A stretch of DNA of 41,045 nt from Fuerstiella sp. (GTDB lineage Bacteria; Planctomycetota; Planctomycetia; Planctomycetales; Planctomycetaceae): positions 1 through 41,045 of the forward strand of contig JAPYTO010000031.1 of NCBI GenBank assembly GCA_029941865.1. The letters run 5' to 3'. Below, one piece after another: positions 7,946 through 29,236 of the stretch; position 1 is the stretch's first letter, and the number at the start of each line of letters is the position of its first letter. A program made the position numbers and the translations under genes. The notes under the pieces are model-generated. The model saw only the letters and a program-made list of their open reading frames with translations, did no database searches and had not been told where the DNA came from.

Positions 7946-7957
7946 CGAAGTTGCATT

Positions 7958-11341: not shown

Positions 11342-13675
11342 TCAACCAGCAATTTTCCTGACGCCCTTGACCGCCTTCTGAACCAGATTGGCGACCAGAG
11401 TTCCTTCCAGATCGTCCGGCGACAGCGGATAGCCAAAATGCTCGCACCCCGCCCTGAGCTCCTGCAGGATTTTGTCTTTTTCCGGCGACCGCCGAAAAGC
11501 CTGCTTCACAAAATAGTAGTTGCTGTTTGGAGAAGGTTGCGGAATCTTCACCGCCTCCTCAAAACGACGCCCTGGATTGATGCCGAGTCCCCGGCAGATC
11601 TCCGAGATCTCCTCCCTTGGGGACTCAACGATCCGTTCATACTGTGCGACAACCCATCCCTGGTCCCGGAACTGAAAATAAGCATCCATGGCATCGTGCC
11701 AGCCAACGGCGGCCTGCAGAAGCAAACTGCCATTTTGCCCTTCCAATCGCGGAGTCCGCAGCACAAAGCTATCCCGACCGTTCCTGATCATCGATTGTAA
11801 TGTCGCCCACGGGCTTCGTGCACAGTAGACGAATTGTGCATCCGGAAAAACACAACGAATCAGGTCCGGGTACAGAATGTGAGATGGATTCTTGATTACG
11901 ATTCGTCGACCGTCTGCCACCTCCAGATACCGTTGACGAATTCTGTCAATCGAATCCGCGTTGCTCAGCGGCACGTCAACACGTGGCCGCTGGCGCACGG
12001 AGTTCCATGCCTGGTAATCAAAGTGCTCCCACCAAAGCCGGTGATCTTCCACACCGGATTGGTCTTCTGGAATGTCAGAATGCTTGTCCTGATGCTCCGT
12101 AATCAAACAGAAATCATCAAGCAGATTTGCAAACACCCGCCCCATCATCAGGCTTCCGCTTCGAGGACAGCCGGTAATAATTATGGGCGACATGTTCGCA
12201 CGGTTCTTTTTCTCAGTGGGTTGACTCAATGAAGCGCCATTTCGCGATCCCTGGTTCACTGACACGCGCGTTAAGGCAGATTTAGATGTGGTCGACAACA
12301 GACGCTGAGAAACTCTCTGTAGCGCGAACGTCGCAAGCTTATTGATTTCCTTGGCAGACTTTGCGAACAGAACGCCTCTCCGTCGCACCCCAACAAGCTT
12401 CAGATTTCGACGAGCGCCGTGCCTGAGATAACGAAGACTGTCGTAATCGTTCAACTCGTAGTTCGCAAAACGAGCTGCCGCTTCGGCGGATTGGGGCTGC
12501 AGGTCCGTCTGCAGGAGGTTAAGGAATTCTGCCGTATTCTGTGGAGTGTACGAAATGCCCAGGTGATCAAAGTATGACGGCCCAAGTTCAATAACCGGCT
12601 TACCTGTCCAACAGGCCTCGATCGCGATTGTGGATGCGAATGTTACAACCACGTCGCTCCATTCCATTAGCTGATAACTGTCAACATCGTCCTCAGGATA
12701 GAAAAGTTGCAGGTTGTCGAGTTGCAGCGACTGATACGGTCCAATGACATCACCAACAATGCTGGACTGATTCGGATGAAACCTGACGGTGAAGAAATGG
12801 TCCGGGAACCGTTGGCACGCCTCTCGAATGACAGAGACGTTGTTTCTGAAAGGAGATCGCCAGGATGGCCCGAGCGACTCACACTCGTCCTGACTGCTCA
12901 GAAAGAAGGTCACCTTCCTGCGATATTGCTCCGCATTCCGGGAAGGCTCAAACCGCTTGTGTGCTGCGGCATATTTATTGAACGACCGGTCGCGACGAGA
13001 CGCAAAATACTCGGCAGCCACTTCCCTGTCAGCAATGTTCCGTCGAATTCTTTCCTGCACAGCAATACGATCATGGGGCGTATACCCCGGAAACAACATT
13101 GGCCTGCCGTAGGCATTAAAATCCAGAGTATTGAATCCTGCCCCGGACGCATTCGCCGCCATGATGCCCACTTTTGCACAGGAGAACCTGCCGTTGAGCA
13201 CCTCAACACGACTGACTTCATTTCGCTTCATCAGCTGCATGAACGCACGCAACAGCGACGCCGCTGCCGCGAAGTAGCGTCGTTTTACATCACGAAGTTC
13301 GGGCACACGATTCAGGTCTGCAGTCATGACGCGAAGGTGCGTGACCAGACAACTCTGAACGCCCAACGCGATTTCGGACGCATCTTCATACGTCAGTCGC
13401 TCGCTCTCTGATTCGTCATTCTCGCCTGTCGGTTCGGCCCCGAGTTCAACGAACGGCAGCCCGCTGGCCTTCGCAGTGAGGCGACTACTCATGCGGCACC
13501 CGGTACAAACCAATCGGCTGCCGGCTAGATTATTACTACAGGTGCCGGCTTTCAGGGCGCAGTAGGCCAGAATGACATCTTCGCCGTCCTCCTGCACTTC
13601 TTTCGCGCGCGCAATCATCATGTAAAATGACCGCTTGCGCATCGGGGGCGGAAGATAGACAACCACAGAGGACAT
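11342..13675 (-). CDS. Fusion of capsule-type transferase and PAPS-dependent sulfotransferase
   Basis: The 777-residue product joins two enzymes. Residues 1 to about 440 are paralogous to the neighbouring 479-residue transferase, sharing the C-x6-C-x10-C-x2-C motif (Cys39, 46, 57, 60), TVRFHPNQSS, EWSDVVVTFASTIAIEACW and GKPVIELGPSYFDHLG. After a low-complexity Ser/Arg/Asn-rich linker (about 455-495) comes a sulfotransferase domain: the PAPS 5'-phosphate loop TGCPRSGSLMMG at 501-512, VIKNPSH near 593-599, and the 3'-phosphate motif CARSPWATLQSM near 618-629. A protein that both transfers a glycan unit and sulfates it is the simplest reading. It starts 40 nt after the amidotransferase stop, so it probably belongs to the HisF-HisH-amidotransferase transcript. 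Both domains look intact. Confidence 0.82.
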   Translation of the reverse strand: MSSVVVYLPPPMRKRSFYMMIARAKEVQEDGEDVILAYCALKAGTCSNNLAGSRLVCTGCRMSSRLTAKASGLPFVELGAEPTGENDESESERLTYEDASEIALGVQSCLVTHLRVMTADLNRVPELRDVKRRYFAAAASLLRAFMQLMKRNEVSRVEVLNGRFSCAKVGIMAANASGAGFNTLDFNAYGRPMLFPGYTPHDRIAVQERIRRNIADREVAAEYFASRRDRSFNKYAAAHKRFEPSRNAEQYRRKVTFFLSSQDECESLGPSWRSPFRNNVSVIREACQRFPDHFFTVRFHPNQSSIVGDVIGPYQSLQLDNLQLFYPEDDVDSYQLMEWSDVVVTFASTIAIEACWTGKPVIELGPSYFDHLGISYTPQNTAEFLNLLQTDLQPQSAEAAARFANYELNDYDSLRYLRHGARRNLKLVGVRRRGVLFAKSAKEINKLATFALQRVSQRLLSTTSKSALTRVSVNQGSRNGASLSQPTEKKNRANMSPIIITGCPRSGSLMMGRVFANLLDDFCLITEHQDKHSDIPEDQSGVEDHRLWWEHFDYQAWNSVRQRPRVDVPLSNADSIDRIRQRYLEVADGRRIVIKNPSHILYPDLIRCVFPDAQFVYCARSPWATLQSMIRNGRDSFVLRTPRLEGQNGSLLLQAAVGWHDAMDAYFQFRDQGWVVAQYERIVESPREEISEICRGLGINPGRRFEEAVKIPQPSPNSNYYFVKQAFRRSPEKDKILQELRAGCEHFGYPLSPDDLEGTLVANLVQKAVKGVRKIAG

Positions 13676-13715: not shown

Positions 13716-14972
13716 TCAAGCAGCATCGCGCTGAGCCTGCTCAGCGTCATCCAGTCCCTGACCGGAGATGGTGTGACGCAGCTTTGGTTCTCCGCTGGCG
13801 TCACGGCCCCAGAGATGAGGAGATCTGAACTTATCCGCCAACTTATGGAAGTGTTCCGGTTCCATCCCGATGTACTTCATCACGTCGTCAAAATACCGGT
13901 CGGGGAATTCACCGTCGAAGCGATTAACCAGGGCAACACCTTCTTCCCGAGTGATATGCCCGTTACGAATTTCCTGGGAAGCGTCGTAGGTCGCTCGACC
14001 GATGCCAAACTTGATGAACGTGGTGTAGTAGTGCAGGTCATCGATCTTGTCATCAATACTGTTGTATTTGCTGTACGTCCCCTGAGTTCGAAATGGTCGC
14101 GCCTTGAATCCACAATTGTCCACGGCGTAGTAATAAACTTCCTGCGGCGTCCACTTCAGATAGTATCCGAGATAGTGGACCTTGACATCAGTCTGACTCA
14201 ATTGTTCGTCCTGCGCTGGCAGGAAACACATCAGATCGCTGAGCGAGACACCATAGCTGTCGATGAGCTCGGCAAGTGAAACTCCACCCAGATAGATTTC
14301 ATCCAGGTTGTTAAACGTGTGATACGAATTGTCCCGCAGACTTGTGGTCGTATCCGCAATCGGATTGCCGTATTCCGCTTCATTTTCTCCGTAGAACACC
14401 AACGGTATTCCCAGACGTGCCGCCAGTTTCGGACCGATGTTCTTCTGGCCCAGCATGAACGTCTGGAACGGATGAAACAGGTTTTCAATGGAGAGTTTGG
14501 TCAACAGGTTCATCACACGACCGTTGCGTGTGAAGGAAATGTTGTCGAAGCCGCCAACGTCAATCCAGTTCTTCCAGTTCTGGTAACCATACTCAGTGTA
14601 GAGGATCGGTGGCCAGGTGATGGTCAACGGGTTCATCCCGTACTTATACTTCAACACGTGCGACTGATAGGCACTGTCCTTACCACCACTGCCGGGAACG
14701 ATGCAGTCGTAGCTGCCATCTTTGCTGCGGTACTGGTCAAGAAGACTGACCAGTTCCTGCTCTCTCTCCTCCCAGTTGAGTTTTTCTTTCTGTTCTGCAA
14801 AACGACAGGCATCGCAGACACCTTCTTCGTCAAATGCAATCGTCGTCTTTTTCGAGCTAATAGTATGCTTGAATTCGACGGCTGACGCGGGCCGCTGATT
14901 TGACATCACACATTGGCTACAAAACCTGACTTCTGTTGGCAAGCCGTAGTACGCCTCAAGACTAACTGACAT
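13716..14972 (-). CDS. N-acetyl sugar amidotransferase (WbpG/PseA/WbuX family)
   Basis: This ATP-dependent PP-loop enzyme converts an N-acetyl group on a sugar to an acetamidino group, using ammonia supplied by the HisH/HisF-like pair encoded just upstream. The N terminus has paired cysteines (FCSQC at about 17-21 and CDAC at 53-56), probably a zinc site, and the pyrophosphatase loop GSGGKDSAYQSH starts at residue 94. FYGENEAEYGNPIAD is another family stretch. The ATG at 14972 is preceded by AAAGGA at a good distance; a GTG at 14993 would add seven residues. Homologues act on Pseudomonas O-antigen sugars (WbpG with HisH2/HisF2), on pseudaminic acid (PseA), and in the Legionella legionaminic acid locus. 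The divergent legionaminic acid operon makes that sugar the likely substrate here. Confidence 0.92.
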   Translation of the reverse strand: MSVSLEAYYGLPTEVRFCSQCVMSNQRPASAVEFKHTISSKKTTIAFDEEGVCDACRFAEQKEKLNWEEREQELVSLLDQYRSKDGSYDCIVPGSGGKDSAYQSHVLKYKYGMNPLTITWPPILYTEYGYQNWKNWIDVGGFDNISFTRNGRVMNLLTKLSIENLFHPFQTFMLGQKNIGPKLAARLGIPLVFYGENEAEYGNPIADTTTSLRDNSYHTFNNLDEIYLGGVSLAELIDSYGVSLSDLMCFLPAQDEQLSQTDVKVHYLGYYLKWTPQEVYYYAVDNCGFKARPFRTQGTYSKYNSIDDKIDDLHYYTTFIKFGIGRATYDASQEIRNGHITREEGVALVNRFDGEFPDRYFDDVMKYIGMEPEHFHKLADKFRSPHLWGRDASGEPKLRHTISGQGLDDAEQAQRDAA

Positions 14973-15011
14973 CCGAGAATCCTTTCTCAACACCGTTCGA
15001 CGGTTCTGATA

Positions 15012-15659
15012 CTAAATCGACCGCGCCCAGTTTTCGTATATTTTCAGTCCAACGGGACCGCTCTTTTCGGGGTGAAACTGCACCCCAAGGATATGGTCTC
15101 GCTGCGTGGCACAGCAATAGCACAAATCCCCGTAGGTTGTGGTCAACAGTAAATCGGCCGTATCTGCCGGAGCAGCATAGAACGAGTGCACAAAATACAT
15201 GTAGGCACCGTCTGGAATTCCCTGCATGATCTCGCGATTCGGCACGCCTTCTGCAATCCACGCCTGATTCCACCCGACGTTGGGCACACGCAGCCTTCGA
15301 TTGCCATCGACCTGATCGGGAATTCGCCGAATCGTGCCTGGTAACAGACCCAGCCCGGTGTGTGTGCCGAACTCTTCACTTTCCTGAAACAACAACTGCA
15401 TTCCCAGACAGATCCCCATCAGGGGCTTGCCAGCCGTGACGGCGTCGCAGAGCGGACCAACCAGATTCAGGTTCCGGAGACTGTCCATTGCATTTCCGAA
15501 CGCTCCCACGCCCGGCAAAATAATACCATCAGCCCTGTCGATTTCCTCCGGTGCCGCTGACACAATGGGAGTCATGCTGGCGCGCTCGCATGCCTGCCGA
15601 ATGCTGAAAATGTTGCCGAGACCGTAATCGATGATCTGAATTCTTGGGGCGACGCTCAC
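15012..15659 (-). CDS. hisH2-like: HisH-type glutamine amidotransferase subunit for sugar amidination
   Basis: This class I glutaminase would release ammonia from glutamine and pass it through the HisF-like barrel to the sugar amidotransferase. Visible features are IIDYGLGNIFSI near the N terminus, the nucleophile loop GICLGMQLLF with the cysteine at about residue 84, and GVQFHPEKSGPVG giving the catalytic His and Glu. At 215 residues it is full length for HisH. I set the start at the GTG at 15659 because GGAGGT lies 6 nt upstream and the GTG overlaps the hisF-like stop (GTGA). No other his genes are nearby and an N-acetyl-sugar amidotransferase follows, so a role in glycan modification is far more likely than histidine synthesis. 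Confidence 0.92.
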   Translation of the reverse strand: MSVAPRIQIIDYGLGNIFSIRQACERASMTPIVSAAPEEIDRADGIILPGVGAFGNAMDSLRNLNLVGPLCDAVTAGKPLMGICLGMQLLFQESEEFGTHTGLGLLPGTIRRIPDQVDGNRRLRVPNVGWNQAWIAEGVPNREIMQGIPDGAYMYFVHSFYAAPADTADLLLTTTYGDLCYCCATQRDHILGVQFHPEKSGPVGLKIYENWARSI

Positions 15660-16516
15660 GCTGTCACCTCCATCCTGCACGGCACTCCGTTCGCCAGCAA
15701 ATGCTGTTTTAGTGCAGCAATCCCGGCGGCATCGACTCTGGCAACGCCTTTACCGCTTCTCAGGAATTCCGTATTCCCTTCAGATGAGTCTTCATTGGAG
15801 AACACGAGGGATCGAATAGCGTCGTAGTGCAGAACACTGGCCACCGCCACGGCGGCCACACCCGTTTTCCTGATCACCTCCGCAACGTCGTCAGGGCAAC
15901 CTGCTCCCCCATGAGCAATCACCGGAATGGAAACAGCGTCGGCAATATTCTTTGTCAATTCGTGATCATAACCATCGCCGGTGCCGTCCCGATCCACGGA
16001 CGTCGCCAGAATCTCTCCCGCACCAAGCTTTTCCGCGGTTCGCGCCCATTCGATCGCATCGACTCCCGTATGCTCACGGCCGTTGTCCGTGTACGCCAGA
16101 TACGTTCCCTCAGGCTGACGAATGCTTTCAATGGCCACAACAATGGTGGAAGAACCAAATCGCAGAGCTGCCTGGCTGATCAGATCGGGGTTGCGAATGG
16201 CCGCAGTGTTGATGGAAACCTTATCCGCCCCGGCGGCAAGGACCGCAGAAATGTCATCAAGTGTCCTCAGTCCACCACCAACAGTCAGCGGAATGAAAGT
16301 ATCCTTCGCAGTCCGCGAAATAAACTCCTTCAGACTGTTTCGTTCGAACAGGCTGGCAACGACATCCTGATAGATCAGCTCGTCCGCACCGGATTCGTAG
16401 TAATATTTCGCGAAGTCCTCAGGACTTCCCATCACGCGCAGACCCTCAAGATGAATTCCTTTCACCAGATTCGGGCCTTTGATATCAAGCCGCGGAATGA
16501 CGCGTACAGTGCTCAT
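15656..16516 (-). CDS. hisF2-like: HisF-type cyclase-like subunit for sugar amidination
   Basis: The 286-residue product is a HisF-family (beta-alpha)8 barrel. It starts RVIPRLDIKGPNLVKGI, carries IPLTVGGGLRTLDDI, and retains the Asp of TSVDRDGTGDGYD, followed by IPVIAHGGAGCPDDV. It would receive ammonia from the HisH-like glutaminase and hand it to the neighbouring N-acetyl sugar amidotransferase. It is longer than classical HisF (about 255 residues), as is common in the WbuZ/HisF2 branch of O-antigen loci. The ATG at 16516 is preceded by AAGAG at a suitable distance; a TTG at 16576 would add 20 residues with no family similarity. It is the first gene of the minus-strand transcript and faces the legionaminic acid operon across an 811-base gap. 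Confidence 0.92.
   Translation of the reverse strand: MSTVRVIPRLDIKGPNLVKGIHLEGLRVMGSPEDFAKYYYESGADELIYQDVVASLFERNSLKEFISRTAKDTFIPLTVGGGLRTLDDISAVLAAGADKVSINTAAIRNPDLISQAALRFGSSTIVVAIESIRQPEGTYLAYTDNGREHTGVDAIEWARTAEKLGAGEILATSVDRDGTGDGYDHELTKNIADAVSIPVIAHGGAGCPDDVAEVIRKTGVAAVAVASVLHYDAIRSLVFSNEDSSEGNTEFLRSGKGVARVDAAGIAALKQHLLANGVPCRMEVTA
15666..15671 (-). promoter_or_regulatory. Ribosome binding site for the HisH-like gene, inside the HisF-like gene
   Basis: GGAGGT on the minus strand lies 6 nt before the GTG at 15659. The GTG shares bases with the TGA stop of the HisF-like gene, a classic arrangement for translational coupling that should keep the two subunits near equal amounts. Confidence 0.75.
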
Positions 16517-17327
16517 CGTAAACTCTTGATTGAGGTTTCCTGTCGAAGTGCAGTCGCGATTGCTCGGGTAACACAAGTCATGGCCGTTCCGCGACTATTC
16601 TTCCAGCAGTTTGGCACGTGAATACTGCGTCTTCGACACAGTGAATCCGGAACTCTGACCAATCCGTGTTCAAGATCAAGCCCATTATCAGACTTCGAAG
16701 ACGCATTGCGTAAGTACAGAAATTAGCGGTTGTATCGGCCACAGCACTATCGACAGTCGACCGGAGATACGTGCAAACGCCGAAAAACACTGCAAAGCAC
16801 GAATTCCCAACTGATGGCCCGACAGTGTCGGGGGGCCTGTCGCCCGGCCAAGGCGCCCAATGACGTCTCGTTCGTCTCCCCGAGGCTTCTGCCGCATCAC
16901 GAACCAGCGTGATGGTTTTTTGCTCGGGCGTGTGCGGCAAGGCCGTCCTGCGATCGCACCACAATGCTCTTGTCGCAATCAACGGTATTCTGTTAGTACG
17001 CGTGGTGCTTGCGCCGCATGAACAAAGTCATTTAGCGCAGCGTGGCAGGACTTATCTGGAGATCATCACGGACGGGGACTTCAGACTGGAAAAAGGGAAA
17101 ACACAGGCACTGAGCCCCACATCGAGGGCCTGTCCGGCAATTCGTTCATCGATCGAATGGTGTGCATTCAGCAAAGCACATGAAGTTCCACTGCTGCGTC
17201 CGGACGATGAGTGACCGAACCTCGGAGGATAGGTTGGTTTTGCAGGCTTTACTTACGTTTTTCACTTATGGAATCCATTCAGGAGGTGCTCTCGTTCGCA
17301 CGCGGCAAGCGGTCGTGAACTGAGCAA
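16517..17327. other. Divergent intergenic region between the amidination and legionaminic acid operons
   Basis: These 811 bases separate two operons transcribed away from each other, so both promoters should lie here. Open frames of 134 codons (minus, 16578-16982) and 101 codons (plus, 16909-17214) occur but have no recognisable motif, odd composition and no clear ribosome site. The most regular structure I see is a palindrome at 16818-16832, listed separately. I could not assign promoter boxes with confidence. Confidence 0.5.
16818..16832. promoter_or_regulatory. Palindrome in the divergent region, possible operator
   Basis: CCCGACA-G-TGTCGGG is a perfect inverted repeat with 7-base arms around one central base. 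It is flanked by a further GGCC pair (16816-16819 and 16834-16837). With such a short centre it suits a dimeric DNA-binding protein better than an RNA hairpin. No regulator gene is nearby to pair it with, and chance occurrence in GC-rich DNA is possible. Confidence 0.3.
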
Positions 17328-18086
17328 ATGGGATTTTCAATGGTCGATAAGTCCACAACCACGTCACACAAACCTGGAATTCGGGCCACCCTGATTCCGT
17401 GCCTGCCGATCATAAAAGGGACACTTGCAGGCACGTGGTGGTCCCCCGCCAGCGGTGGCAAGATCGCCCGCGTATTTCTGGGTAGCTACGAACATGAGCA
17501 AACCCGTCTCATGGCGAATTCCTTCCGCCAGAACAGCGTTTTCTTCGACGTGGGTGCTCACCACGGGTATTACTCGCTGATCGCGTCGCGTGTGTCTGGC
17601 GGTGGCGCCAGGATCGTGGCGTTTGAACCAGACCAGGAAAACATCGCGTTTCTGCGCAAACATGTTCGGGCAAATGGTCTTGATCAGGTCGAGATCGTTG
17701 AATCGGCCGTTGGCGCAGAAGCTGGAACTGTGGGATTCTCGAAGGGCACGGGCACCGGGACGGGACATATTGCGGAAAACGGCGACGTGCAGGTTCCACT
17801 GGTGACACTGGATGACGAAGTTCGCCGTCGAAATCTCTGCCCGACACACATCAAGATCGATGTTGAGGGCGCGGAAGTCGACGTCCTCACCGGAGCACAG
17901 GACACACTGCAAAAGCATCGTCCAGTGCTCTTTCTTTCAACCCACGGTGACAGAGCTCATGCGGATTGCTGTCGCATGCTGGCGTCAATGGACTACCGGC
18001 TGGAACCGATTCTGGGGGATAGTGTCGAAACAACGACCGAGATTTTCTGCGTTCCCGCGGAGCAACAGTTAGAAATCGCCGCCTGA
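17328..18086 (+). CDS. FkbM family S-adenosylmethionine methyltransferase
   Basis: This is a predicted SAM-dependent methyltransferase of the FkbM type, a family that often O-methylates sugars in polysaccharide loci. The SAM-binding glycine motif is FFDVGAHHGYYSLIASR (about residues 72-88), followed by IVAFEPDQENIAFLRKHV, and the family block HIKIDVEGAEVDVLTGA lies near 178-194. A short Gly-Thr repeat (GTGTGTG) sits in the middle of the domain. At 252 residues it is a full single domain. A second in-frame ATG at 17340 could be the true start. It precedes LegF by 18 nt and heads the plus-strand operon, so the methyl acceptor is plausibly the nonulosonic acid or the glycan carrying it; this is inference from position only. 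Confidence 0.88.
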   Translation: MGFSMVDKSTTTSHKPGIRATLIPCLPIIKGTLAGTWWSPASGGKIARVFLGSYEHEQTRLMANSFRQNSVFFDVGAHHGYYSLIASRVSGGGARIVAFEPDQENIAFLRKHVRANGLDQVEIVESAVGAEAGTVGFSKGTGTGTGHIAENGDVQVPLVTLDDEVRRRNLCPTHIKIDVEGAEVDVLTGAQDTLQKHRPVLFLSTHGDRAHADCCRMLASMDYRLEPILGDSVETTTEIFCVPAEQQLEIAA

Positions 18087-18104: not shown

Positions 18105-18827
18105 ATGGTCAACACACTTGGATTTGTATTTGCTCGAGGCGGGTCGAAGGGGATTCCGAACAAGAATCTCCGTTTGCTGGGAGGCAAACCTCTGATCGCC
18201 CACGCCATCGATGCGGCACTGGAATGCCGGAGCCTTGACCGGGTTATCGTATCCACCGACAGTCCTGAGATCGCCAACGTGTCTCGCATGTATGGCGCCG
18301 AAGTGCCCTTTATGCGACCGGCGGAACTGGCCACGGATACAGTCATGGAAAGACTTGCCTGGCGACACGCCATTGAGCAGATGGAAGAACTCGAAGGCCA
18401 CCGGGTTGATATCTTCGTCAGCGTGCCACCGACGTGCCCGCTGCGGTCGCCTGACGACATCGACCGTGCCGTCGAAGCCCTGCTGGCCAGTGACGGAGAC
18501 ATCGTGCTGTCGGCAACGGAATCAAAGTGCAATCCGTATTTCAACATGATCACGATCGGCCCAGAAGGTACGGCGGAACTTGCTTCGAAGCCGGATGATC
18601 GAATTACCCGACGTCAGGACGCACCGATCGTCTATGAACTCACGGCTGTCGCGTACGCCGCCAGACGAGACTCAATTTTCGATTACGATTCCATTTTTGA
18701 CAGTGACGCCCGCGCCATCGAAGTCCCGGAGGAAAGGGCTGTTGATATCGATACGAACTTCGACCTGAAGCTGGCAGAGTTCCTTTACGCTCAGCAATCC
18801 GAACAACGCAACATGAAAGCGGCATAA
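18105..18827 (+). CDS. legF: CMP-nonulosonate cytidylyltransferase (LegF/NeuA family)
   Basis: This enzyme activates a nonulosonic acid with CTP to give the CMP-sugar donor, the last step of the pathway. The N terminus carries the family nucleotide-binding signature FARGGSKGIPNKNLRLLGGK. RVIVSTDSPEIANVSRMYGA and VSVPPTCPLRSPDDI follow, all standard for NeuA/LegF/PseF proteins. At 240 residues it has the single catalytic domain without a C-terminal esterase domain. Because LegB, LegC and LegH are encoded downstream, CMP-legionaminic acid is a better product guess than CMP-Neu5Ac. The gap to the next gene is about 50 nt. Confidence 0.93.
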   Translation: MVNTLGFVFARGGSKGIPNKNLRLLGGKPLIAHAIDAALECRSLDRVIVSTDSPEIANVSRMYGAEVPFMRPAELATDTVMERLAWRHAIEQMEELEGHRVDIFVSVPPTCPLRSPDDIDRAVEALLASDGDIVLSATESKCNPYFNMITIGPEGTAELASKPDDRITRRQDAPIVYELTAVAYAARRDSIFDYDSIFDSDARAIEVPEERAVDIDTNFDLKLAEFLYAQQSEQRNMKAA

Positions 18828-18878
18828 GAATTCAAACTGCGTGAACCTGTGGTCGTGTTGTTATCAAGGAAGTTCTCA

Positions 18879-19940
18879 ATGCCCTCACAATATTCCAACA
18901 TTCAAATCGGTGATCGTACTGTCGGAGATGGCCACCCCTGCTTCGTCATTGCCGAGGCGGGCGTCAATCACAATGGTTCCGTCGATCGTGCCCTGCAGCT
19001 GATCGACTGCGCCGCCAACGCCGGCGCAGACGCGGTCAAGTTCCAGACGTTTAACTCATCACAACTGGTCACCAAAGACGCAAAACAGGCAGCCTATCAG
19101 AAGAAGAATCTTGGCACCGAACAGTCTCAACTGGACATGCTCCGACAGCTGGAACTTTCAGATGCGGATCATCAGAAGTTGATGGACCATTGTCAGGAAC
19201 GCGGCATTCTGTTCATGTCGACGCCATTCGACGACCTCAGCGCAGACCTGCTGACGGAACTGGGTGTCAAGGTCTTCAAACTTCCGTCCGGCGAAATGAC
19301 CAACACGCCATTTCTGAAATACGTCGCCGCAAAGGGTCGACCGCTGATCGTGTCAACCGGCATGTGCAGTCTGGGTGAAGTCGAGGCTGCGGTTGAGGCA
19401 ATCGAGAAGGCCGGCAACAACAACTTCGTCCTGCTGCACTGCGTCAGCAACTACCCGGCGGATCCGGCCACGGTCAACCTGCGAGCGATGGCGACCATGA
19501 AAGCCGCCTTCGGTCGTCCGGTCGGCTATTCCGACCATACCATGGGGATCGAAGTCGGCGTGGCCTCCGCCGCGCTGGGTGCATGTGTACTGGAGAAGCA
19601 CTTCACACTGGACAGGTCCCTGCCTGGCCCCGACCACAAGGCATCACTGGAACCGGACGAATTGCACAATTTGATGAAGAGCATTCGGACGGTCGAATCG
19701 GCGATGGGGACCGGAATCAAGAAATCAACAGTTGCCGAAAAAGAAACCGCCCGCGCCGCCAGAAAGAGTCTGGTGACGGCCATAGAGATTCCGGCGGGGA
19801 CGGAAATAACGCCGAACCTGATCGCCATCAAACGGCCTGGGACAGGACTTCCGCCAGCGATGCAGCCGCATATCCTGAATCGGCGGGCAACCACCACGCT
19901 GCCCGCCGGTCATCTTCTCAGATTGGAGGACGTTGCGTGA
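18879..19940 (+). CDS. legI: Legionaminic acid synthase (LegI, NeuB family)
   Basis: LegI condenses a six-carbon N-acetyl-mannosamine-type sugar (here probably 2,4-diacetamido-2,4,6-trideoxymannose) with phosphoenolpyruvate to form the nine-carbon nonulosonic acid. The barrel domain shows FVIAEAGVNHNGSVDRALQL, AGADAVKFQTF, and VGYSDHTMGIEVGVASAALG with a downstream EKHFTLDRSLPGPDHKASLEP. The C-terminal part is an antifreeze-like SAF domain (ARKSLVTAIEIPAGTEIT). At 353 residues it is full length. The ATG at 18879 has AAGGAAG 6 nt upstream; a GTG at 18849 would add ten residues. Its TGA stop overlaps the GTG start of the next gene. Confidence 0.94.
   Translation: MPSQYSNIQIGDRTVGDGHPCFVIAEAGVNHNGSVDRALQLIDCAANAGADAVKFQTFNSSQLVTKDAKQAAYQKKNLGTEQSQLDMLRQLELSDADHQKLMDHCQERGILFMSTPFDDLSADLLTELGVKVFKLPSGEMTNTPFLKYVAAKGRPLIVSTGMCSLGEVEAAVEAIEKAGNNNFVLLHCVSNYPADPATVNLRAMATMKAAFGRPVGYSDHTMGIEVGVASAALGACVLEKHFTLDRSLPGPDHKASLEPDELHNLMKSIRTVESAMGTGIKKSTVAEKETARAARKSLVTAIEIPAGTEITPNLIAIKRPGTGLPPAMQPHILNRRATTTLPAGHLLRLEDVA
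19925..19930 (+). promoter_or_regulatory. Ribosome binding site for LegG inside LegI
   Basis: GGAGGA lies 6 nt before the GTG at 19937. That GTG overlaps the LegI stop as GTGA. This fixes the LegG start within an open frame that extends 118 codons further upstream (to 19583) through LegI in another phase. Confidence 0.75.
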
Positions 19941-21118
19941 GAAACGTCACCGCCGTCACTGTTGGACGATCCGATTGGGGCATTTACCGCCCGGTGCTGC
20001 AGCAGATCCGGGATAACTGTGCTCTGAATCTCAGATTGATCGTTTCCGGTGCGCACACAACTCCGGATGCGGGTTACACGGTCAACGAAATCACGGGCGA
20101 CGGATTTGTCGTCGATGACACGGTCGACATGCTGTTATCGGCCGACAGTCCTGCTGCCATCGCCAAATCAATGGGACTTGGCACGATGGGCTTTGCTGAC
20201 GTCTACCAACGAAATCGACCGGACATCCTGCTGCTGCTGGGCGATCGCTTTGAAATGCATTCCGCCGCATTGGCGGCCGTCCCGTTCGGAATTCCCATCG
20301 CACACATTCACGGCGGAGAAGTCACTCAAGGTGCTATCGATGATGCTTTTCGCCATGCCATCACGAAGTACAGTCACCTGCATTTTCCTTCAACGCAACA
20401 ACACGCAAACAGAATCGTTCAGTTGGGCGAAGAACCATGGCGGATCACTGTCAGCGGCGCACCAGCGCTTGATAATCTGCGAACAATGTCGTTCCTGAAC
20501 CGGGACCAGCTGGCCGAACGGGTGCAGCTTGATCTGAGCGATGCGCCCGTCATGGTCACTTTTCACCCAGTCACCCTGCAGCCCACTGAAACGGAGGCTC
20601 AGATCACAGAGGTGATCAGGGCGCTGGCAAATATCAGCGGGCCGTTCATCATCACACGTCCCAATGCGGACACTCGGCATTCTCTGGTCACAGATCGGCT
20701 GGAAGATTTCTGCCGTCAGCGGGATAACGCGTGCCTTGTCAGCAGCCTGGGAACTCAGGCTTACTTCAGTCTGATGCGTGAAGCACGAGTAATGGTCGGC
20801 AACTCGTCCAGTGGCATCATTGAAGCCGCGTCCTTTGGATTGCCGGTTGTCAACATCGGCCTGCGTCAGGCCGGCAGACCACGATCCGCCAACATTATCG
20901 ATGTCGACTGCACGGTCCGTGCCATCACGGAAGCGACTGAAAAAGCGTCTGCCCCGTCGTTTCGAAACAGTATCAAAGATCTGCACAACATCTACGGCCA
21001 GGGCAATGCGGCATCGATCATCACGGATTGCCTGAAGTCCGTGCCCCTGGACGAACAGCTGCTGCTGAAACGATTTCACGATCTGCCGCCCCTGTCCTCT
21101 CAGATGGCTGCAGCCTGA
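19937..21118 (+). CDS. legG: Hydrolysing NDP-sugar 2-epimerase (LegG, NeuC family)
   Basis: The product both hydrolyses the nucleotide and inverts C2 of a UDP/GDP-N,N'-diacetylbacillosamine-type sugar, giving the substrate of LegI. It opens with VRNVTAVTVGRSDWGIYRPV, the usual NeuC/LegG start, followed by DILLLLGDRFEMHSAALAAV, IAHIHGGEVTQGAIDDAFRH and VMVGNSSSGIIEAASFGLPV, all family-defining. Using the GTG at 19937 gives 393 residues, the normal family length, whereas the longer open frame would add 118 residues that are just LegI read out of phase. The next gene begins 3 nt after the stop. Assignment as LegG rather than sialic-acid NeuC rests on the company of LegB, LegC and LegH. Confidence 0.93.
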   Translation: MRNVTAVTVGRSDWGIYRPVLQQIRDNCALNLRLIVSGAHTTPDAGYTVNEITGDGFVVDDTVDMLLSADSPAAIAKSMGLGTMGFADVYQRNRPDILLLLGDRFEMHSAALAAVPFGIPIAHIHGGEVTQGAIDDAFRHAITKYSHLHFPSTQQHANRIVQLGEEPWRITVSGAPALDNLRTMSFLNRDQLAERVQLDLSDAPVMVTFHPVTLQPTETEAQITEVIRALANISGPFIITRPNADTRHSLVTDRLEDFCRQRDNACLVSSLGTQAYFSLMREARVMVGNSSSGIIEAASFGLPVVNIGLRQAGRPRSANIIDVDCTVRAITEATEKASAPSFRNSIKDLHNIYGQGNAASIITDCLKSVPLDEQLLLKRFHDLPPLSSQMAAA

Positions 21119-21121
21119 GCC

Positions 21122-21775
21122 ATGAACAGAATTGTCATCATTGGAGCGGGTGGACACGCTCGCGTATTGATTGAAGCCATCGCTGCCGATACGTCAGCAA
21201 CGGTGTCCGCAGTCGTGGACGACGATGCATCAACGTGGGGCACGTCGTTGTCCGGAATCCCGATCGTTGGTAGCGATGATCACCTGAAGTCGCTCTACGA
21301 CACGACGGAATGCGATTCTTTTGTCGTTGCGATCGGAGGGATCAACAGCTTCTCGTTGAGGCGACGGCTGTACAACGACGCTCAGGCTATCGGACTTAGG
21401 CCATACACCGTCCGACACTCGTCGTGCGAATGTTCGCCATCGGCAGTTCTTGCCGATGGCTGCCAGTTCCTGGCGCGTGCTGTGGTCAACGCCGGTGCCG
21501 AAATCGGCGAAAACGTCATCATCAATACGGCTGCTGTCGTCGAACATGATTGCATCATCGGCAGTCATGCCCATATCGCCCCTCAGGCCTGCCTGGCCGG
21601 TGGCGTCCGTGTCGGAGATGAAAGTCATATTGGCTTGGGAGCCGTTGTGAACGAGAATCTGTCAGTTGGTGCTCGCGCCCTTGTGGGCGCCGGAGCGGTC
21701 GTCGTCACTGACGTCCCCGATGACACGGTTGTTGTCGGCGTGCCGGCTCGTCCCATTCGAAAGCCGAATTCATGA
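21122..21775 (+). CDS. legH: Sugar O/N-acetyltransferase (LegH, NeuD/PglD family)
   Basis: LegH would acetylate the C4 amine left by LegC, using acetyl-CoA. The N-terminal Rossmann-like PglD domain begins RIVIIGAGGHARVLIEA, and the C-terminal half is a left-handed beta-helix of hexapeptide repeats, including VVEHDCIIGSHAHIAP with the likely catalytic histidine at residue 142. The end, DDTVVVGVPARPIRK, is the common terminus of the family. At 217 residues it is full length. It starts 3 nt after LegG and its TGA overlaps the ATG of the next gene (ATGA), indicating coupled translation. Confidence 0.92.
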   Translation: MNRIVIIGAGGHARVLIEAIAADTSATVSAVVDDDASTWGTSLSGIPIVGSDDHLKSLYDTTECDSFVVAIGGINSFSLRRRLYNDAQAIGLRPYTVRHSSCECSPSAVLADGCQFLARAVVNAGAEIGENVIINTAAVVEHDCIIGSHAHIAPQACLAGGVRVGDESHIGLGAVVNENLSVGARALVGAGAVVVTDVPDDTVVVGVPARPIRKPNS

Positions 21776-22830
21776 GCGACAACTTCAGAAATCTGTGCGT
21801 CGCTGAACCCACAACTCTTCGCGAGGTGATGCAGTTCATCGACCGCGGCAGCCTGGGCATCGCGATTGAGGTTGATGCACAGGAACGGTTTTTGCGAACG
21901 ATCACGGACGGCGATCTGCGACGAGCGATTCTTGATGGACATAACCTGAACGCAACGCTCAGTGAACTGCCGCAGCGCAAGAAGCCATCGGTCACGGCTC
22001 CGTCAGCAACGCCGCGCAGCGAACAACTGGCGATCATGCAGCGGGAAACGATTCGACATCTGCCTTTGCTCAACAGGGACGGCACGCTGGCCGACCTGGC
22101 GCTGGCGGAGGAGCTTACCCCCGCGCCGATGCCTTTGCAGGCCGTAATTATGGCCGGAGGATTCGGCACGCGTCTGCGACCATTGACAGATGATACTCCC
22201 AAGCCGATGCTGCAGATCGGCGGGAAGCCACTGATGGAACGAACCATCGAGAACTTTCAGCGTGCCGGGATCCACCGAATTAACGTGACCACACACTACC
22301 TGTCTGAGAAGATCACGCAGCATTTCGGCAACGGTAATCGATTTGGGGTTGAACTCAACTACGTCTCAGAAGACGAACCGCTGGGAACAGCCGGAGCGCT
22401 ACGATTGATCAGTGACGTGGATGAACCATTGCTGGTCATCAATGGCGATATCCTGACGGACGTCGACTTCCGAGCCCTGGCGAAGTTTCATCAGGAAAAC
22501 AACGCAGCAATGACGGTCGCCGTGCGGCAGTACGACGTTGAGGTTCCGTACGGCGTCATCGAAGCGGACGGCGGAATCGTACGCGGTCTTCGCGAGAAAC
22601 CGAGTTTCAACTTTCTGGTGAATGCCGGCATCTATCTGCTGGAGCCTTCCGTCCGACAGCACATTCCCGACGGCACACGCTACGACATGACGGACCTCAT
22701 CGACGCGCTGCTGCAGAACAACGAAACGGTCGTCGGATTCCCGATCACCGAATACTGGCTGGACATCGGCAAGCACGATGACTTTCAGCAGGCCCAGAAA
22801 GACATCCATCGCTACAGGCGGGCAGCATGA
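21772..22830 (+). CDS. ptmE: CBS-domain sugar nucleotidyltransferase (PtmE-like)
   Basis: The 352-residue protein has an N-terminal CBS-pair region (about residues 1-115, with FLRTITDGDLRRAIL and IRHLPLLNRDG) and a C-terminal nucleotidyltransferase. The catalytic loop GGFGTRLRPL starts at 129 and continues into the lysine-containing TPKPMLQIGGKPLMERT; LLVINGDILTDVDF carries metal-binding acidic residues. This architecture matches PtmE of Campylobacter jejuni, which makes GDP-GlcNAc to open the GDP-based legionaminic acid route. The CBS pair suggests control by an adenine nucleotide, which is inference. Its start overlaps the LegH stop and its stop overlaps the LegB start, both as ATGA. Confidence 0.9.
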   Translation: MSDNFRNLCVAEPTTLREVMQFIDRGSLGIAIEVDAQERFLRTITDGDLRRAILDGHNLNATLSELPQRKKPSVTAPSATPRSEQLAIMQRETIRHLPLLNRDGTLADLALAEELTPAPMPLQAVIMAGGFGTRLRPLTDDTPKPMLQIGGKPLMERTIENFQRAGIHRINVTTHYLSEKITQHFGNGNRFGVELNYVSEDEPLGTAGALRLISDVDEPLLVINGDILTDVDFRALAKFHQENNAAMTVAVRQYDVEVPYGVIEADGGIVRGLREKPSFNFLVNAGIYLLEPSVRQHIPDGTRYDMTDLIDALLQNNETVVGFPITEYWLDIGKHDDFQQAQKDIHRYRRAA

Positions 22831-23816
22831 CGTGGAGTGGAAAATCAGTACTGGTCACGGGAGCCGGCGGCTTCATTGGCAGTCATCTCGCGGAAGCATT
22901 AACGGAAGCCGGCGCAACGGTGCGCGCAATGGTTCACTATAACTCCAGCGGGCGAGCCGGGTGGCTGGACGAATCGCCAATGCGTCAGAACATGGAAATC
23001 GTCGCTGGCGACATTACCGATTCCGGCTCGGTGCTGCACGCGATGGATGGCTGCGACGCGGTTTTCCATCTCGCCGCTCTCATCGCGATCCCATATTCCT
23101 ACACCGCCCCGGCGTCGTATGTGCAGACAAATGTGGTCGGCACACTGAACGTTCTGGAAGGCGCTCGACGGCTGGGCACGTCACGCATCATTCACACGTC
23201 CACCAGCGAAGTCTACGGCACGGCTCTGAGCGTTCCCATTTCCGAAGAGCACCCTCTGCAGGCACAGTCTCCCTACTCGGCCAGCAAGATCGGAGCCGAC
23301 AAACTGGTGGAATCGTACTACCGCTCATTCGACACGCCAGTGGTCACCGTCAGACCGTTCAACACATTCGGTCCACGCCAGTCAGCGAGGGCTGTTCTGC
23401 CGACCATCATTACTCAATGCCTGAAACCGGATGTTACAAAAATTCGACTGGGCAGCCTGACACCAACACGTGACCTGAATTACGTGGCGAATACCGTTCA
23501 CGGCTTCATGATGGCAGGCGACCACCCGGACTCTCTGGGACACACCCTGAATATTGGGTCGGGCCGGGAAATCAGCATCGGCGATCTGGCAGCAACGATT
23601 GCCCGGCTCACGGGTCGGGAAATCACCATCGAATCTGACGAACAGCGAATTCGTCCGGCAAAGAGCGAAGTGGAACGCTTGCTGGCGGACAACACGCTGG
23701 CCAGAAAACTGATCGGCTGGGAGCCGTTGTTCACGCTGGAGCAAGGCCTGGAAAGAACCATCGAATGGTTCCGGGAAAACCTGTCTGGATACCGTGCCGA
23801 TGTCTACAACGTCTGA
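22827..23816 (+). CDS. legB: NDP-GlcNAc 4,6-dehydratase (LegB, extended SDR)
   Basis: LegB takes GDP- or UDP-GlcNAc to the 4-keto-6-deoxy sugar. It is an extended short-chain dehydrogenase: the NAD-binding loop VTGAGGFIGSH is at residues 10-20, the catalytic Tyr and Lys are in YSASKIGADKL (Tyr150, Lys154), and STSEVYGTA provides the third catalytic region. RPFNTFGPRQSARAVLPTII and the C-terminal DVYNV are very typical of LegB proteins. The length of 329 residues fits. Because a PtmE-like enzyme precedes it, the substrate is probably GDP-GlcNAc. The reading frame overlaps the start of LegC by 17 nt. Confidence 0.93.
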   Translation: MTWSGKSVLVTGAGGFIGSHLAEALTEAGATVRAMVHYNSSGRAGWLDESPMRQNMEIVAGDITDSGSVLHAMDGCDAVFHLAALIAIPYSYTAPASYVQTNVVGTLNVLEGARRLGTSRIIHTSTSEVYGTALSVPISEEHPLQAQSPYSASKIGADKLVESYYRSFDTPVVTVRPFNTFGPRQSARAVLPTIITQCLKPDVTKIRLGSLTPTRDLNYVANTVHGFMMAGDHPDSLGHTLNIGSGREISIGDLAATIARLTGREITIESDEQRIRPAKSEVERLLADNTLARKLIGWEPLFTLEQGLERTIEWFRENLSGYRADVYNV

Positions 23817-24999
23817 CAGCTCGTCCGGAGCTGCGACCTCACAGAATTCGTTCATCCCGTTATGCGAGCCCTGTTTACGGGGCAACGAATGGGAGTATGT
23901 CAAAGAGTGTCTCGATACCGGATGGGTTTCGTCCGTCGGCAGTTTCGTCGACCGTTTTGAGACCGGAGTCGCGCGCTACACGGGAGTCGACCACGCCGTC
24001 GCCACAGTCAACGGAACGGCCGCCCTGCACACCGGACTGCTGTGCGTGGGTGTTGAACCGGACGACGAAGTGCTGGTCTCAACACTGACATTCATCGCCT
24101 CAGCCAACGCCATTCGTTACGCCGGCGCACACCCGGTTCTGATTGATGCAGAACCACGCTTTTGGCAGATGGATCCGAATCTGGTGGAACATTATCTGTC
24201 ACAGGAGTGTGTCTTTAAGAATGGGATCCTGCGCAATCGGTCGACCGGCCGCCGCGTCCGCGCCATTATGCCCGTGCATGTTCTGGGACACCCGGTCCAG
24301 ATGGATGAGATACGACAACTGGCCGGAAAATACGAGTTGGCTGTCGTCGAAGACGCCGCCGAATCACTCGGAGCGGCCTATCACGGAAACCGAGTCGGCT
24401 GTGATGGCGACGTGACCTGCTTCAGTTTCAACGGCAACAAGACCATCACTGCGGGGGCTGGCGGCATGCTGGTCACCAATAACTCCCACGTTGCCGAACG
24501 TGCTCGGTATCTGACGACGCAGGCCAAAGACGATCCGGTGGAATATGAGCACCACGAAGTGGGCTACAACTATCGCCTGTCCAACGTGTTGGCCGCTCTG
24601 GGGCTGGCTCAGTTGGAACAGATTGATGCGGTCATTGCCAGAAAACGGGAAATCGCGGCAACCTACGATTCCCAGTTGAACCTGCCGGGATTTGACTGGT
24701 TCCGCGAGTCTCCGGACGTGTTTTCGACGTACTGGCTGTCCACCGCGATGATCGACCCGTTGTCCTCAGGAACAACGGCCACAGCCCTGCGTCTGGGACT
24801 TCACGAACAGGACGTTCAGACACGACGGCTGTGGAGACCGATGCATACGAACCCTCCCTACATGGAGTGTCAATCCGTATTGACCGGTGTCGCAGATTCG
24901 ATCGCTGACAACTCACTAAGTTTTCCGTCGTCCGCATCACTGACCGACGATGATCAGGCGCGGGTTTGCAACGCAGTCGCGGCTTTACTCGAACGCTAG
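23800..24999 (+). CDS. legC: PLP-dependent sugar aminotransferase (LegC, DegT/DnrJ/EryC1 family)
   Basis: LegC adds an amino group at C4 of the 4-keto sugar from LegB, with glutamate as likely donor. The N terminus reads FIPLCEPCLRGNEWEYVKEC then DTGWVSSVGSFVDRFE, a signature of LegC proteins. The PLP-lysine is in SFNGNKTITAGAGGML (about Lys214), and VVEDAAESLGAAYHG gives the cofactor-contact aspartate. At 399 residues it is full length. I chose the ATG at 23800; a GTG at 23794 is also possible. It is the last gene of the operon, followed by a REP-like hairpin element. Its presence with LegB and LegH separates this pathway from ordinary sialic acid synthesis. Confidence 0.93.
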   Translation: MSTTSDSSSGAATSQNSFIPLCEPCLRGNEWEYVKECLDTGWVSSVGSFVDRFETGVARYTGVDHAVATVNGTAALHTGLLCVGVEPDDEVLVSTLTFIASANAIRYAGAHPVLIDAEPRFWQMDPNLVEHYLSQECVFKNGILRNRSTGRRVRAIMPVHVLGHPVQMDEIRQLAGKYELAVVEDAAESLGAAYHGNRVGCDGDVTCFSFNGNKTITAGAGGMLVTNNSHVAERARYLTTQAKDDPVEYEHHEVGYNYRLSNVLAALGLAQLEQIDAVIARKREIAATYDSQLNLPGFDWFRESPDVFSTYWLSTAMIDPLSSGTTATALRLGLHEQDVQTRRLWRPMHTNPPYMECQSVLTGVADSIADNSLSFPSSASLTDDDQARVCNAVAALLER

Positions 25000-27244: not shown

Positions 27245-29236
27245 ATGGGCACTCTACTACGTATCGGCGGCGTTCTCTGGCCGCATCGCAAGCGGGTCTT
27301 TCTGTCAGTCATCTGTGCATTTCTGATTTCTGCGCTATGGGCCGTGAACCTGTCCATCACCTACCCGATTGTCCGCGTGCTGTTCGAAAACGACAGCCTG
27401 CACGCCTATGTCGACACCGAGATCGAGGGCATCGAGGCAGAGATCGACAGATTATCCGACGTCCTGTCGACAACCGATGAATCGATGGTTTCGCACGGCG
27501 CCGACATACGGCGGAAGCTGCACAACGCTTCTCAGGAATTGCTCTTCAAGCAACGGCTCAAGACCTGGGTACTTCCGTGGGTTCCTTCGAACAAATTCAA
27601 TACTGTCCTCGCAATACTCAGCCTGGTGATCGCGGCCACCATCCTTAAAGGTGTCTTTCAGTATTTTCAGGAGCTTCTTGTTGGGAGCTTCGTGTTCGCG
27701 TCTTCAAACGACATACGGCGCAAAACCTTCGAACATGTCATGGGCCTTGATTATCAGTCCGTTCAGTCACTCGGAAGCGCTCAACTGACCTCACGCCTGA
27801 CAAACGATGTCACTATTCTCAGTGACGGTCTTCGCCTGTGTGGGTCGGTACTGGTTCGAGAACCCATGAAGGCGAGCTGCTGTATCCTGGCGGCCATGTT
27901 GTTCAACTGGCGGTTGACCTGTATTTCCATTCTGATTCTTCCCGTGATCGGACTTGTCTTCTACCACGCCGGACGGGCGCTACGACGGACTGCCACCAAA
28001 ACGATGGAAACGATGGGGAATATCTATCACCGCATAGCTGAAACTTTCGAGTCGACACGAGTCGTCATCGCATTCAATGGGCAGTCGCGCCATCGTGAAC
28101 AATTGGTATCTGCCAACCAGGACTATTACAACACATCCATGAAACTGATCCGTGTGAGTGCTCTGATAAAGCCGGCCACGGAACTTCTCGGGATCATCGG
28201 CTTCATTGGCATCCTTGTTCCAGGAGCCTATCTGGTGCTGAACAACACCGACAAGATCGCGGGAATCAAGCTGGCATCCGGCCCGTTGGGAATTGCCGAA
28301 CTGACGACGCTGTATGTTTTGATGGCCGGAGTTCTGGATCCGGTCCGAAAGCTATCAGGCGTCTTTCCGACCATGAAACGCGCATCTGCGGCCGCAGATC
28401 GTATTTTCTCCGTCGATGACAAAGTTTCTCGCGTCCCGGACACAGAGACACCAATATCGGCCATGACTCATTCGAAGCACATACGCTTTGACAACATCTC
28501 GTTTCGCTACGAAAACAGCGGTGAAACATTTCTGGATAATCCTCCGACGCTACAGAACGTAAGCCTCTCAGTGAACTTTGGAGAAGTCGTTGCGGTGGTC
28601 GGCGGAAACGGTTCCGGCAAGTCCACACTGATCAGCCTGCTGCCTCGACTGATCGATCCGGCAAAAGGTACAGTGAGCATCGATGGGATCGACACAAAAG
28701 ATCTGGCGCTCAAAGATCTTCGCAAACAGATTGGCCTCGTCACTCAGGACACCATGCTGTTCGACGATACGATCTACAACAATGTGCTGTACGGTAACCC
28801 ACAGGCAACGGCAACGGAAATTGAGAAAGCAATCAAACAGGCGCACGCCGCCGACTTTGTTTCACTGCTGCCGCAGGGCCTCAGCACACGCGTCGGCGCA
28901 AAAGGTCAGAAGCTTTCGGGTGGACAGAAGCAACGTATTTCACTGGCCCGGGCAATCGTGCGGAATCCATCGATCCTGATCCTGGACGAAGCAACTTCTG
29001 CCATCGACGCAGAAAGTGAAGCCATCATCTATGATGTGCTGAAAGAGTTCTCCAAGGGGCGTACGGTATTCATTATTTCGCACGTCATCAATCAACAGTT
29101 TGTGGACCTCATTGACCGAGTCGTCGTGCTGGAGGCCGGACAGATTATTGCCGAAGGAACTCACACGGAGCTCATGGTCAGCAGCCCGGAGTATGGCAGA
29201 CTTGTACAGACGGACGTCATAAAGAAAGTGGCGTAG
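27245..29236 (+). CDS. MsbA-like ABC exporter (fused membrane and ATPase domains)
   Basis: This 663-residue half-transporter would dimerise to move a lipid-linked or amphipathic substrate out of the cytoplasm. The membrane domain covers about residues 15-390. The ATPase domain follows with Walker A GGNGSGKST (about 453-461), Q-loop LVTQDTMLFDDTI, signature LSGGQKQR (about 557), Walker B LILDEATSAID (about 577) and H-loop ISHVIN (about 611). All catalytic residues look intact. Between helices 1 and 2 there is an extra segment of about 65 residues rich in Glu, Asp and Lys (about 50-115), probably outside the membrane and partly coiled coil. Placed after the glycan genes, it could flip a lipid-linked glycan; drug or lipid export is the alternative. 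It is about 260 bp downstream of the preceding gene. Confidence 0.92.
   Translation: MGTLLRIGGVLWPHRKRVFLSVICAFLISALWAVNLSITYPIVRVLFENDSLHAYVDTEIEGIEAEIDRLSDVLSTTDESMVSHGADIRRKLHNASQELLFKQRLKTWVLPWVPSNKFNTVLAILSLVIAATILKGVFQYFQELLVGSFVFASSNDIRRKTFEHVMGLDYQSVQSLGSAQLTSRLTNDVTILSDGLRLCGSVLVREPMKASCCILAAMLFNWRLTCISILILPVIGLVFYHAGRALRRTATKTMETMGNIYHRIAETFESTRVVIAFNGQSRHREQLVSANQDYYNTSMKLIRVSALIKPATELLGIIGFIGILVPGAYLVLNNTDKIAGIKLASGPLGIAELTTLYVLMAGVLDPVRKLSGVFPTMKRASAAADRIFSVDDKVSRVPDTETPISAMTHSKHIRFDNISFRYENSGETFLDNPPTLQNVSLSVNFGEVVAVVGGNGSGKSTLISLLPRLIDPAKGTVSIDGIDTKDLALKDLRKQIGLVTQDTMLFDDTIYNNVLYGNPQATATEIEKAIKQAHAADFVSLLPQGLSTRVGAKGQKLSGGQKQRISLARAIVRNPSILILDEATSAIDAESEAIIYDVLKEFSKGRTVFIISHVINQQFVDLIDRVVVLEAGQIIAEGTHTELMVSSPEYGRLVQTDVIKKVA

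Follow-up and report, generated by a model that had tools for sequence, protein, structure and literature searches.

Which nonulosonic acid does a planctomycete make with a compact cluster of genes of the legionaminic acid (Leg) type, and where does the sugar go? The question is raised by a 41,045-base contig of Fuerstiella sp. (C31; the window, below, is this whole stretch of DNA), which belongs to an 8.04 Mb assembly of 612 contigs that is 90.5% complete. Positions 18105–24999 of its plus strand hold seven intact genes in the order LegF-LegI-LegG-LegH-PtmE-LegB-LegC (F-I-G-H-E-B-C), whose neighbours overlap or are separated by gaps of no more than about 50 bases. We consider it reasonably probable that the operon directs the synthesis of a 5,7-diamido-nonulosonic acid of the legionaminic series, activated with CMP, and that the sugar is amidinated and transferred to a surface glycan. 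An earlier note on this DNA had described seven consecutive genes here, and all seven are indeed present, open, on one strand and nearly contiguous. It named the right families, but in pathway order and not in the order on the DNA, and it left out an amidination module and two candidate transferases that lie just upstream of the operon.

The nonulosonate synthase LegI (18879..19940; NeuB family) scored 453 bits against TIGR03569 (cut-off 400) and LegG (19937..21118), a hydrolysing NDP-diNAcBac 2-epimerase of the NeuC family, 430 bits against TIGR03568 (cut-off 236). Both scores were computed on the longer listed open reading frames, which open at GTG 18849 and at 19583, within LegI; we corrected the starts to ATG 18879 and GTG 19937, respectively. 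The PglD/NeuD-type N-acyltransferase LegH (21122..21775; TIGR03570, 214 bits, cut-off 161) and the PLP aminotransferase LegC (23800..24999; TIGR04181, 453 bits, cut-off 420) also exceed their thresholds. For LegB (22827..23816), an NDP-GlcNAc 4,6-dehydratase, TIGR04180 is by far the top model (456 bits, the next 163), and LegF (18105..18827), a CMP-nonulosonate cytidylyltransferase, passes the Pfam cut-off for PF02348 with 86 bits and has NeuA (9ftb, 102 bits) as its closest match in the Protein Data Bank (PDB). The PtmE-like protein (21772..22830) carries a CBS domain (PF00571; whole-protein score 30 bits against a cut-off of 24, with no single stretch individually significant) and, C-terminal to it, a sugar-1-phosphate nucleotidyltransferase domain (PF00483, 168 bits) that is probably a guanylyltransferase; none of the 25 NCBIfam models shown is matched above its cut-off, the top one giving 171 bits (cut-off 440). 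In line with the motif support claimed in the earlier note, LegB has a Rossmann glycine motif and YxxxK, LegC the lysine region NxNK, LegG GDRFE and HGGE, LegI EKHF and PGPDH, LegF ARGGSKG, and PtmE TDGDxRR (in the CBS part) and AGGFGTRLRPLT, all of which we take to be family-typical or active-site motifs. The assembly contains a single NeuB-family gene (search at E 0.001). The nearest named relatives of the operon proteins are Planctomycetota, and the window also encodes DUF1501, PSD1, PSCyt1 and PSCyt2 proteins, in keeping with a planctomycete. Promoter-like sites were fewer than in shuffled sequence (2 vs 5.0) and terminator-like sites showed no excess (9 vs 9.2).

These genes suggest a route in which PtmE would activate GlcN(Ac)-1-phosphate, GTP being the most likely donor, LegB would dehydrate the product to a 4-keto-6-deoxy sugar, LegC would place an amino group on C4 and LegH would acylate it. 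LegG would then remove the nucleotide and invert C2, LegI would condense the sugar with phosphoenolpyruvate and LegF would add CMP. The amidination module, WbuX-HisH2-HisF2, would convert one N-acetyl group to an acetamidino group with ammonia from glutamine, and one or both of two BFO_1060-like glycosyltransferases would transfer the sugar to a surface glycan, which might in addition be sulfated and O-acylated.

By its family scores, solved relatives and trees, the operon is assigned to the legionaminic series and not to the PseB/PseC type. The PseB model gave 51 bits where the LegB model gave 456, the PseC model 261 bits (cut-off 424) where the LegC model gave 453, and the PseI model 297 bits where the NeuB/LegI model gave 453. 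In the PDB, LegG is closest to a GDP/UDP-diNAcBac 2-epimerase (5zlr/5xvs, 266 bits), with a sialic-type GNE at 160 bits, and LegI is closest to SpsE (229 bits), followed by a second synthase (190 bits), SiaC (187 bits) and PseI (167 bits); the match table gives molecule names only, and we take the epimerase to be from Acinetobacter and the second synthase from Leptospira. The nearest solved relative of LegC is a perosamine synthetase (3bn1, 265 bits), an enzyme that acts on a GDP-sugar. All trees given here are quick ones with SH-aLRT support only. In that of LegG, the window protein belongs to a 12-row clade made up of homologues from leg clusters (support 100), and the Acinetobacter enzyme falls among other leg-cluster rows, with GNE set as the outgroup. 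The LegI tree recovers a nearly identical set of 11 rows (support 90) and the PtmE tree a similar set of 12 (support 93), in which a Verrucomicrobiales locus (L053) is placed elsewhere and L039 and L058 lie outside the clade. In the LegI tree, the references SpsE, SiaC and a Leptospira NeuB are placed on branches that are long and unresolved. This weighs against the assignment, as do the position of LegB 19 bits below its curated cut-off (475), the failure of LegF to pass any NCBIfam cut-off, and the composition of the trees, which held neither Campylobacter nor Legionella enzymes nor PseI.

We rejected a pseudaminic or neuraminic acid identity on the family scores, and a misreading of this kind is very improbable: LegF does favour the PseF model (157 bits, cut-off 206) and the LegG and LegI families include NeuC and NeuB, but the PseB, PseC and PseI models are outscored by wide margins, and neuraminic acid synthesis requires neither a 4,6-dehydratase nor an aminotransferase. 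A subtler alternative is that the same kind of gene set yields a stereoisomer, 4-epi- or 8-epi-legionaminic acid. One shared synthesis pathway has been drawn for Leg and its isomers (PMC7371886), and configuration is not fixed by sequence; the seven-gene operon contains no additional epimerase gene, however, and we judge this outcome unlikely, if worth keeping in mind. Another epimerase/dehydratase-family gene does lie in the window at 39950–41017, and there may be epimerases elsewhere in the genome. The same intermediates could also be UDP-linked, as in Legionella pneumophila and Bacillus subtilis, with the CBS-nucleotidyltransferase using UTP or serving another role. Leg synthesis by UDP intermediates is in print (PMC6137143, PMC7439481), the best NCBIfam matches of PtmE, none of them above its cut-off, include both guanylyl (ManC-type, 171 bits) and uridylyl (MurU, 143 bits) enzymes, the closest structure to LegG is labelled GDP/UDP, and none of our sequence comparisons distinguishes GTP from UTP. 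What makes a UDP route rather improbable in our view is the resemblance of LegC to perosamine synthetase, the poor performance of the GDP-GlcNAc-using C. jejuni LegB in a B. subtilis SpsM mutant, where Leg was not or only partially restored (PMC7439481), and the genomic linkage of the CBS fusion.

To measure this linkage we used 100 LegB loci, made up of 20 regions from 22 other genomes of the phylum with LegB above 300 bits and, from named genomes, the 80 best of 583 confirmed matches, and called a locus complete when it held homologues of LegB, LegC, LegI and LegG, each above 120 bits and over 60% of the query. With a model built from the PtmE rows of the same 100 loci, a full CBS-nucleotidyltransferase was detected in 42 of the 47 complete loci and in 19 of the 53 others. 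The earlier note had taken the CBS fusion as the marker of the GDP route; its linkage to Leg clusters stands, but is no proof of GTP use. We infer that the fusion supports the GDP route, and the data as a whole support a CMP-nonulosonate pathway of the legionaminic series that includes the CBS-nucleotidyltransferase accompanying LegB-type clusters. A nucleotidyltransferase match without the full CBS part was present in 20 of the 53 other loci, and LegB alone is therefore no marker of Leg synthesis. Loci without LegI (for example L059, L062, L064 and L079) carry such an incomplete-CBS nucleotidyltransferase, with no nonulosonate synthase in the stretch examined, and probably belong to a different LegB-using sugar pathway.

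The operon is a further case of a known and widespread pathway. The clade in the LegG tree spans Planctomycetota, Verrucomicrobiota, Thermodesulfobacteriota, Chloroflexota, Armatimonadota and one Methanotrichaceae archaeon, and the identical F-I-G-H-E-B-C order recurs in Rhodopirellula rubra (L052), in SAR202 (L070) and in one further genome (G039, L045). Of 12 other genomes sampled from the same family, five carry a different pathway lineage with another gene order, and the lineage of the window operon is unlike theirs. Across the phylum sample of 246 genomes, LegB exceeds 300 bits in 23, of which 19 also have NeuB. The operon itself looks like a mosaic. Identity to the R. rubra counterparts is 75% for LegF and 76% for LegI, with lower values for LegG (45%), LegH (34%), LegC (43%), PtmE (54%) and LegB (65%); PtmE (74%), LegB (78%) and LegC (68%) resemble those of the Planctomycetaceae genome HKST-UBA52 (L050), in which the stretch examined contains no LegF, LegI or LegG. 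The matching pairs have tree supports of 97–100, and LegH, too, has its partner in HKST-UBA52 (44% identity). The leg region of L109, used as a DNA query, gave no match in E. coli genomes.

The statement in the earlier note that every step is supplied goes too far, because a GlmU-type N-acetylation step is absent from the window. In Campylobacter, the N-acetyltransferase GlmU joins the GDP-sugar half of the pathway to the CMP half (PMC4481668). Across the window, the GlmU model matched only the nucleotidyltransferase part of PtmE. The top match in the assembly, a 317-residue frame on another contig (C70, 15385–16311), covers model positions 3–307 of 452, which is the uridylyltransferase part without the C-terminal acetyltransferase domain, and this counts against the proposed route. 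Another acetyltransferase, LegH included, might stand in for GlmU. The note had also suggested that housekeeping enzymes supply the early precursors; GlmS is present in the assembly (794 bits), but GlmM has no match above its cut-off there (best 81 and 55 bits). Housekeeping supply is plausible, though incomplete on this assembly.

The amidination module is encoded at 13716–16576 on the minus strand, divergently from the operon and about 1.5 kb away. It comprises a WbuX/LegA-type N-acetyl sugar amidotransferase with a PP-loop motif (13716..14993; TIGR03573, 366 bits, cut-off 203), the glutaminase subunit HisH2 (15012..15680; TIGR01855, 205 bits, cut-off 105) and the synthase subunit HisF2/WbuZ (15656..16576; TIGR03572, 264 bits, cut-off 300). 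We considered whether HisF2 might be a histidine-synthesis gene and rejected this, as a separate HisF that passes its cut-off (385 bits) lies on another contig (C12). A WbuX-HisH-HisF triad is found within the leg clusters of three of the 11 LegG-clade members other than the window, from Desulfobacterales (L054), Planctomycetota (L055) and Armatimonadetes (L058), as well as in Sulfuricurvum (L119), outside that clade. Window WbuX is 67, 66, 58 and 46% identical to these four copies, respectively, groups with them in a tree (support 100) and groups with the first three (support 97); its identity to another WbuX of its own genome is no more than 29% over 114 residues. No WbuX turned up in the R. 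rubra stretch examined. In the phylum sample (WbuX at E 1e-40, NeuB at E 1e-30), 16 of 18 genomes with WbuX also have NeuB, compared with 92 in the full set of 246 (Fisher p 4e-6, though such phylum-wide p-values are too small because the genomes are interrelated), and 11 of 25 WbuX matches, the window's own included, lie within 15 kb of NeuB. From this linkage and kinship, the module probably acts on the nonulosonate. Because its WbuX is 58–67% identical to copies in three related Leg clusters, the product is probably acetamidino-Leg. In Campylobacter, PtmG has been named CMP-Leg5Am7Ac acetamidino-synthase (PMC13317340).

The module and the two glycosyltransferases could instead serve another sugar and leave plain Leg5Ac7Ac as the product of the operon. 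We regard this as possible, although on the unlikely side. It would fit the opposite strand and the distance of the module, the scarcity of WbuX homologues, which at the threshold used occur in only five of the 47 complete loci (four of them with HisF2/HisH2), and the additional WbuX copies in the genome. On the other hand, the closest WbuX relatives that we found are part of same-lineage leg operons, and the phylum sample shows an association between WbuX and NeuB. Further points tell against a dedicated amidination module: apart from the window, eight of 11 members of the LegG clade have no triad in the stretch examined, HisF2 falls below the WbuZ cut-off, and HisH2 exceeds the cut-off of the histidine-enzyme model, so that TIGR01855 alone cannot separate the two functions, and no search for a housekeeping HisH was made. 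Such modules also serve other sugars, as indicated by the genome's further WbuX and HisF copies away from NeuB. Two other contigs each carry a HisH/HisF paralogue pair, in one case with WbuX (C88) and in the other as the pair (C332); neither contig has NeuB, and the pairs probably serve other sugars.

Two genes beyond the module are candidate Leg transferases. GTa (9569..11008, minus strand), probably of GT-B type, and GTb (11342..13675, minus strand), a second copy that is 41% identical to it and is fused to a C-terminal sulfotransferase, matched NF046086 with 52 and 34 bits; in Pfam, GTb scored 77 bits for PF13469 and 29 bits for PF05159. Since the NF046086 scores are far under the cut-off of 200, we term the proteins only BFO_1060-like. 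A homologue of GTa adjoins LegF in R. rubra. BFO_1060-like matches occur in 27 of the 246 phylum genomes and all 27 carry NeuB, whereas for a control family, PF04230, NeuB is present in 31 of 67; 21 of 32 matches, including the window's own genes, lie within 15 kb of NeuB. Known bacterial sialyltransferases and nonulosonic acid (NulO) transferases share an HP motif, a D/E-D/E-G motif and a GT-B fold. Among the three sequences that we aligned, the HP motif is invariant (3/3), and a D/E-D/E-G motif is found in 2/3, far N-terminal. BFO_1060 itself may be the Tannerella Leg transferase, judging by its map position; a literature search on BFO_1060 found no paper. Because every sampled genome with a match has NeuB, a transferase group appears recognizable in planctomycetes. 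We tentatively suggest that the locus is a make-modify-transfer island for acetamidino-Leg, whose Capsule_synth/BFO_1060-like pair would fall in a broad uncharacterised group of CMP-nonulosonate transferases. Against this stand the low NF046086 scores of both proteins, the single genome of the 27 with a match above the cut-off, the narrow reach of a profile built from GTa, GTb and their R. rubra homologue (only four further phylum genomes), the 39 of 50 leg genomes that have no BFO_1060-like match, and the mean pLDDT of 53 for the predicted GTa structure. A sequence search of the PDB at E 0.1 found no relative of GTa. If the locus is such an island, one polypeptide, the sulfotransferase fusion GTb, would add Leg to the glycan and also sulfate it.

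Other neighbours suggest a decorated surface glycan, namely an FkbM-family methyltransferase, an acyltransferase pair and an exporter. The methyltransferase (17328..18086, plus strand; TIGR01444, 105 bits, cut-off 38) lies just upstream of LegF, a position that makes sugar methylation possible. At 6788–9397 on the minus strand, an MBOAT acyltransferase (7958) adjoins a 385-residue protein (6788) with no Pfam or NCBIfam match at E 0.001; the two are a possible O-acylation pair. The MsbA-like ABC exporter (27245..29236, plus strand; TIGR02203, 398 bits, cut-off 602) has a 65% identical homologue directly 3' of LegC in HKST-UBA52, and could possibly export the glycan. Directly 3' of LegC in the window is a BNR (sialidase-like) protein (25229–26371, plus strand; PF13088, 253 bits) with one Asp-box and a signal-like N-terminus, as judged by eye, and no solved relative at E 0.001. 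We did not keep it as a member of the system, as its only homologue among loci L030–L129 is a single weak one (L092, 33 bits).

The closest parallels are with Campylobacter jejuni/coli, whose CMP-Leg pathway uses the same enzyme families, the PtmE-type nucleotidyltransferase included, and for which the acetamidino-synthase PtmG is also named (PMC13317340). In contrast, the genes form a single F-I-G-H-E-B-C operon in the window, the scanned window proteins did not include the Campylobacter partners PtmF, PtmA and PgmL, and Pfam scans of 27 window proteins gave no Maf-type transferase. Tannerella forsythia has legBCHIGF and ptmE beside a GT-B type NulO transferase, GtfS/TFUB4_00887 (PMC6120980, PMC6388019). 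The window glycosyltransferases, by comparison, are only distantly BFO_1060-like, one of them is fused to a sulfotransferase, and a HisH/HisF/WbuX triad is present. The O-antigen cluster for poly-legionaminic acid in Legionella pneumophila brings together homologues of NeuB, HisF and HisH, and its 5-acetamidino sugar, named in a reference title of the same source, is a further likeness (PMC3694923); the route described there is UDP-based, however (PMC6137143), and for the window sugar there is no evidence of a homopolymer. In the sps cluster of Bacillus subtilis, the end product is also Leg, and SpsE is the nearest solved relative of LegI, but the first enzyme, SpsM, is a different dehydratase that acts on UDP-GlcNAc (PMC7439481). 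One further paper, PMC2693436, deals with catabolism. No planctomycete Leg operon is reported in the titles and abstract openings of the literature searched, a body that leaves many journals uncovered.

The Leg pathway is known and widespread, and the present operon adds another lineage in Planctomycetota; what it contributes beyond this is the amidination module and the candidate transferase group tied to NeuB. Known Leg transferases are few. A review from 2019 that reports the Tannerella enzymes states that predictions of Leg transferases were otherwise unavailable (PMC6388019), and in 2021 Maf4 was proposed as a putative Leg transferase in Campylobacter (PMC9298399). A glycosyltransferase group that co-occurs with NeuB in all sampled planctomycete genomes where it is found provides testable candidates. 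If our reading is true, acetamidino-Leg would be displayed on a planctomycete surface, where immune mimicry would seem to be no obvious reason for it, and a sugar best known from pathogens would be part of the surface of an environmental bacterium.

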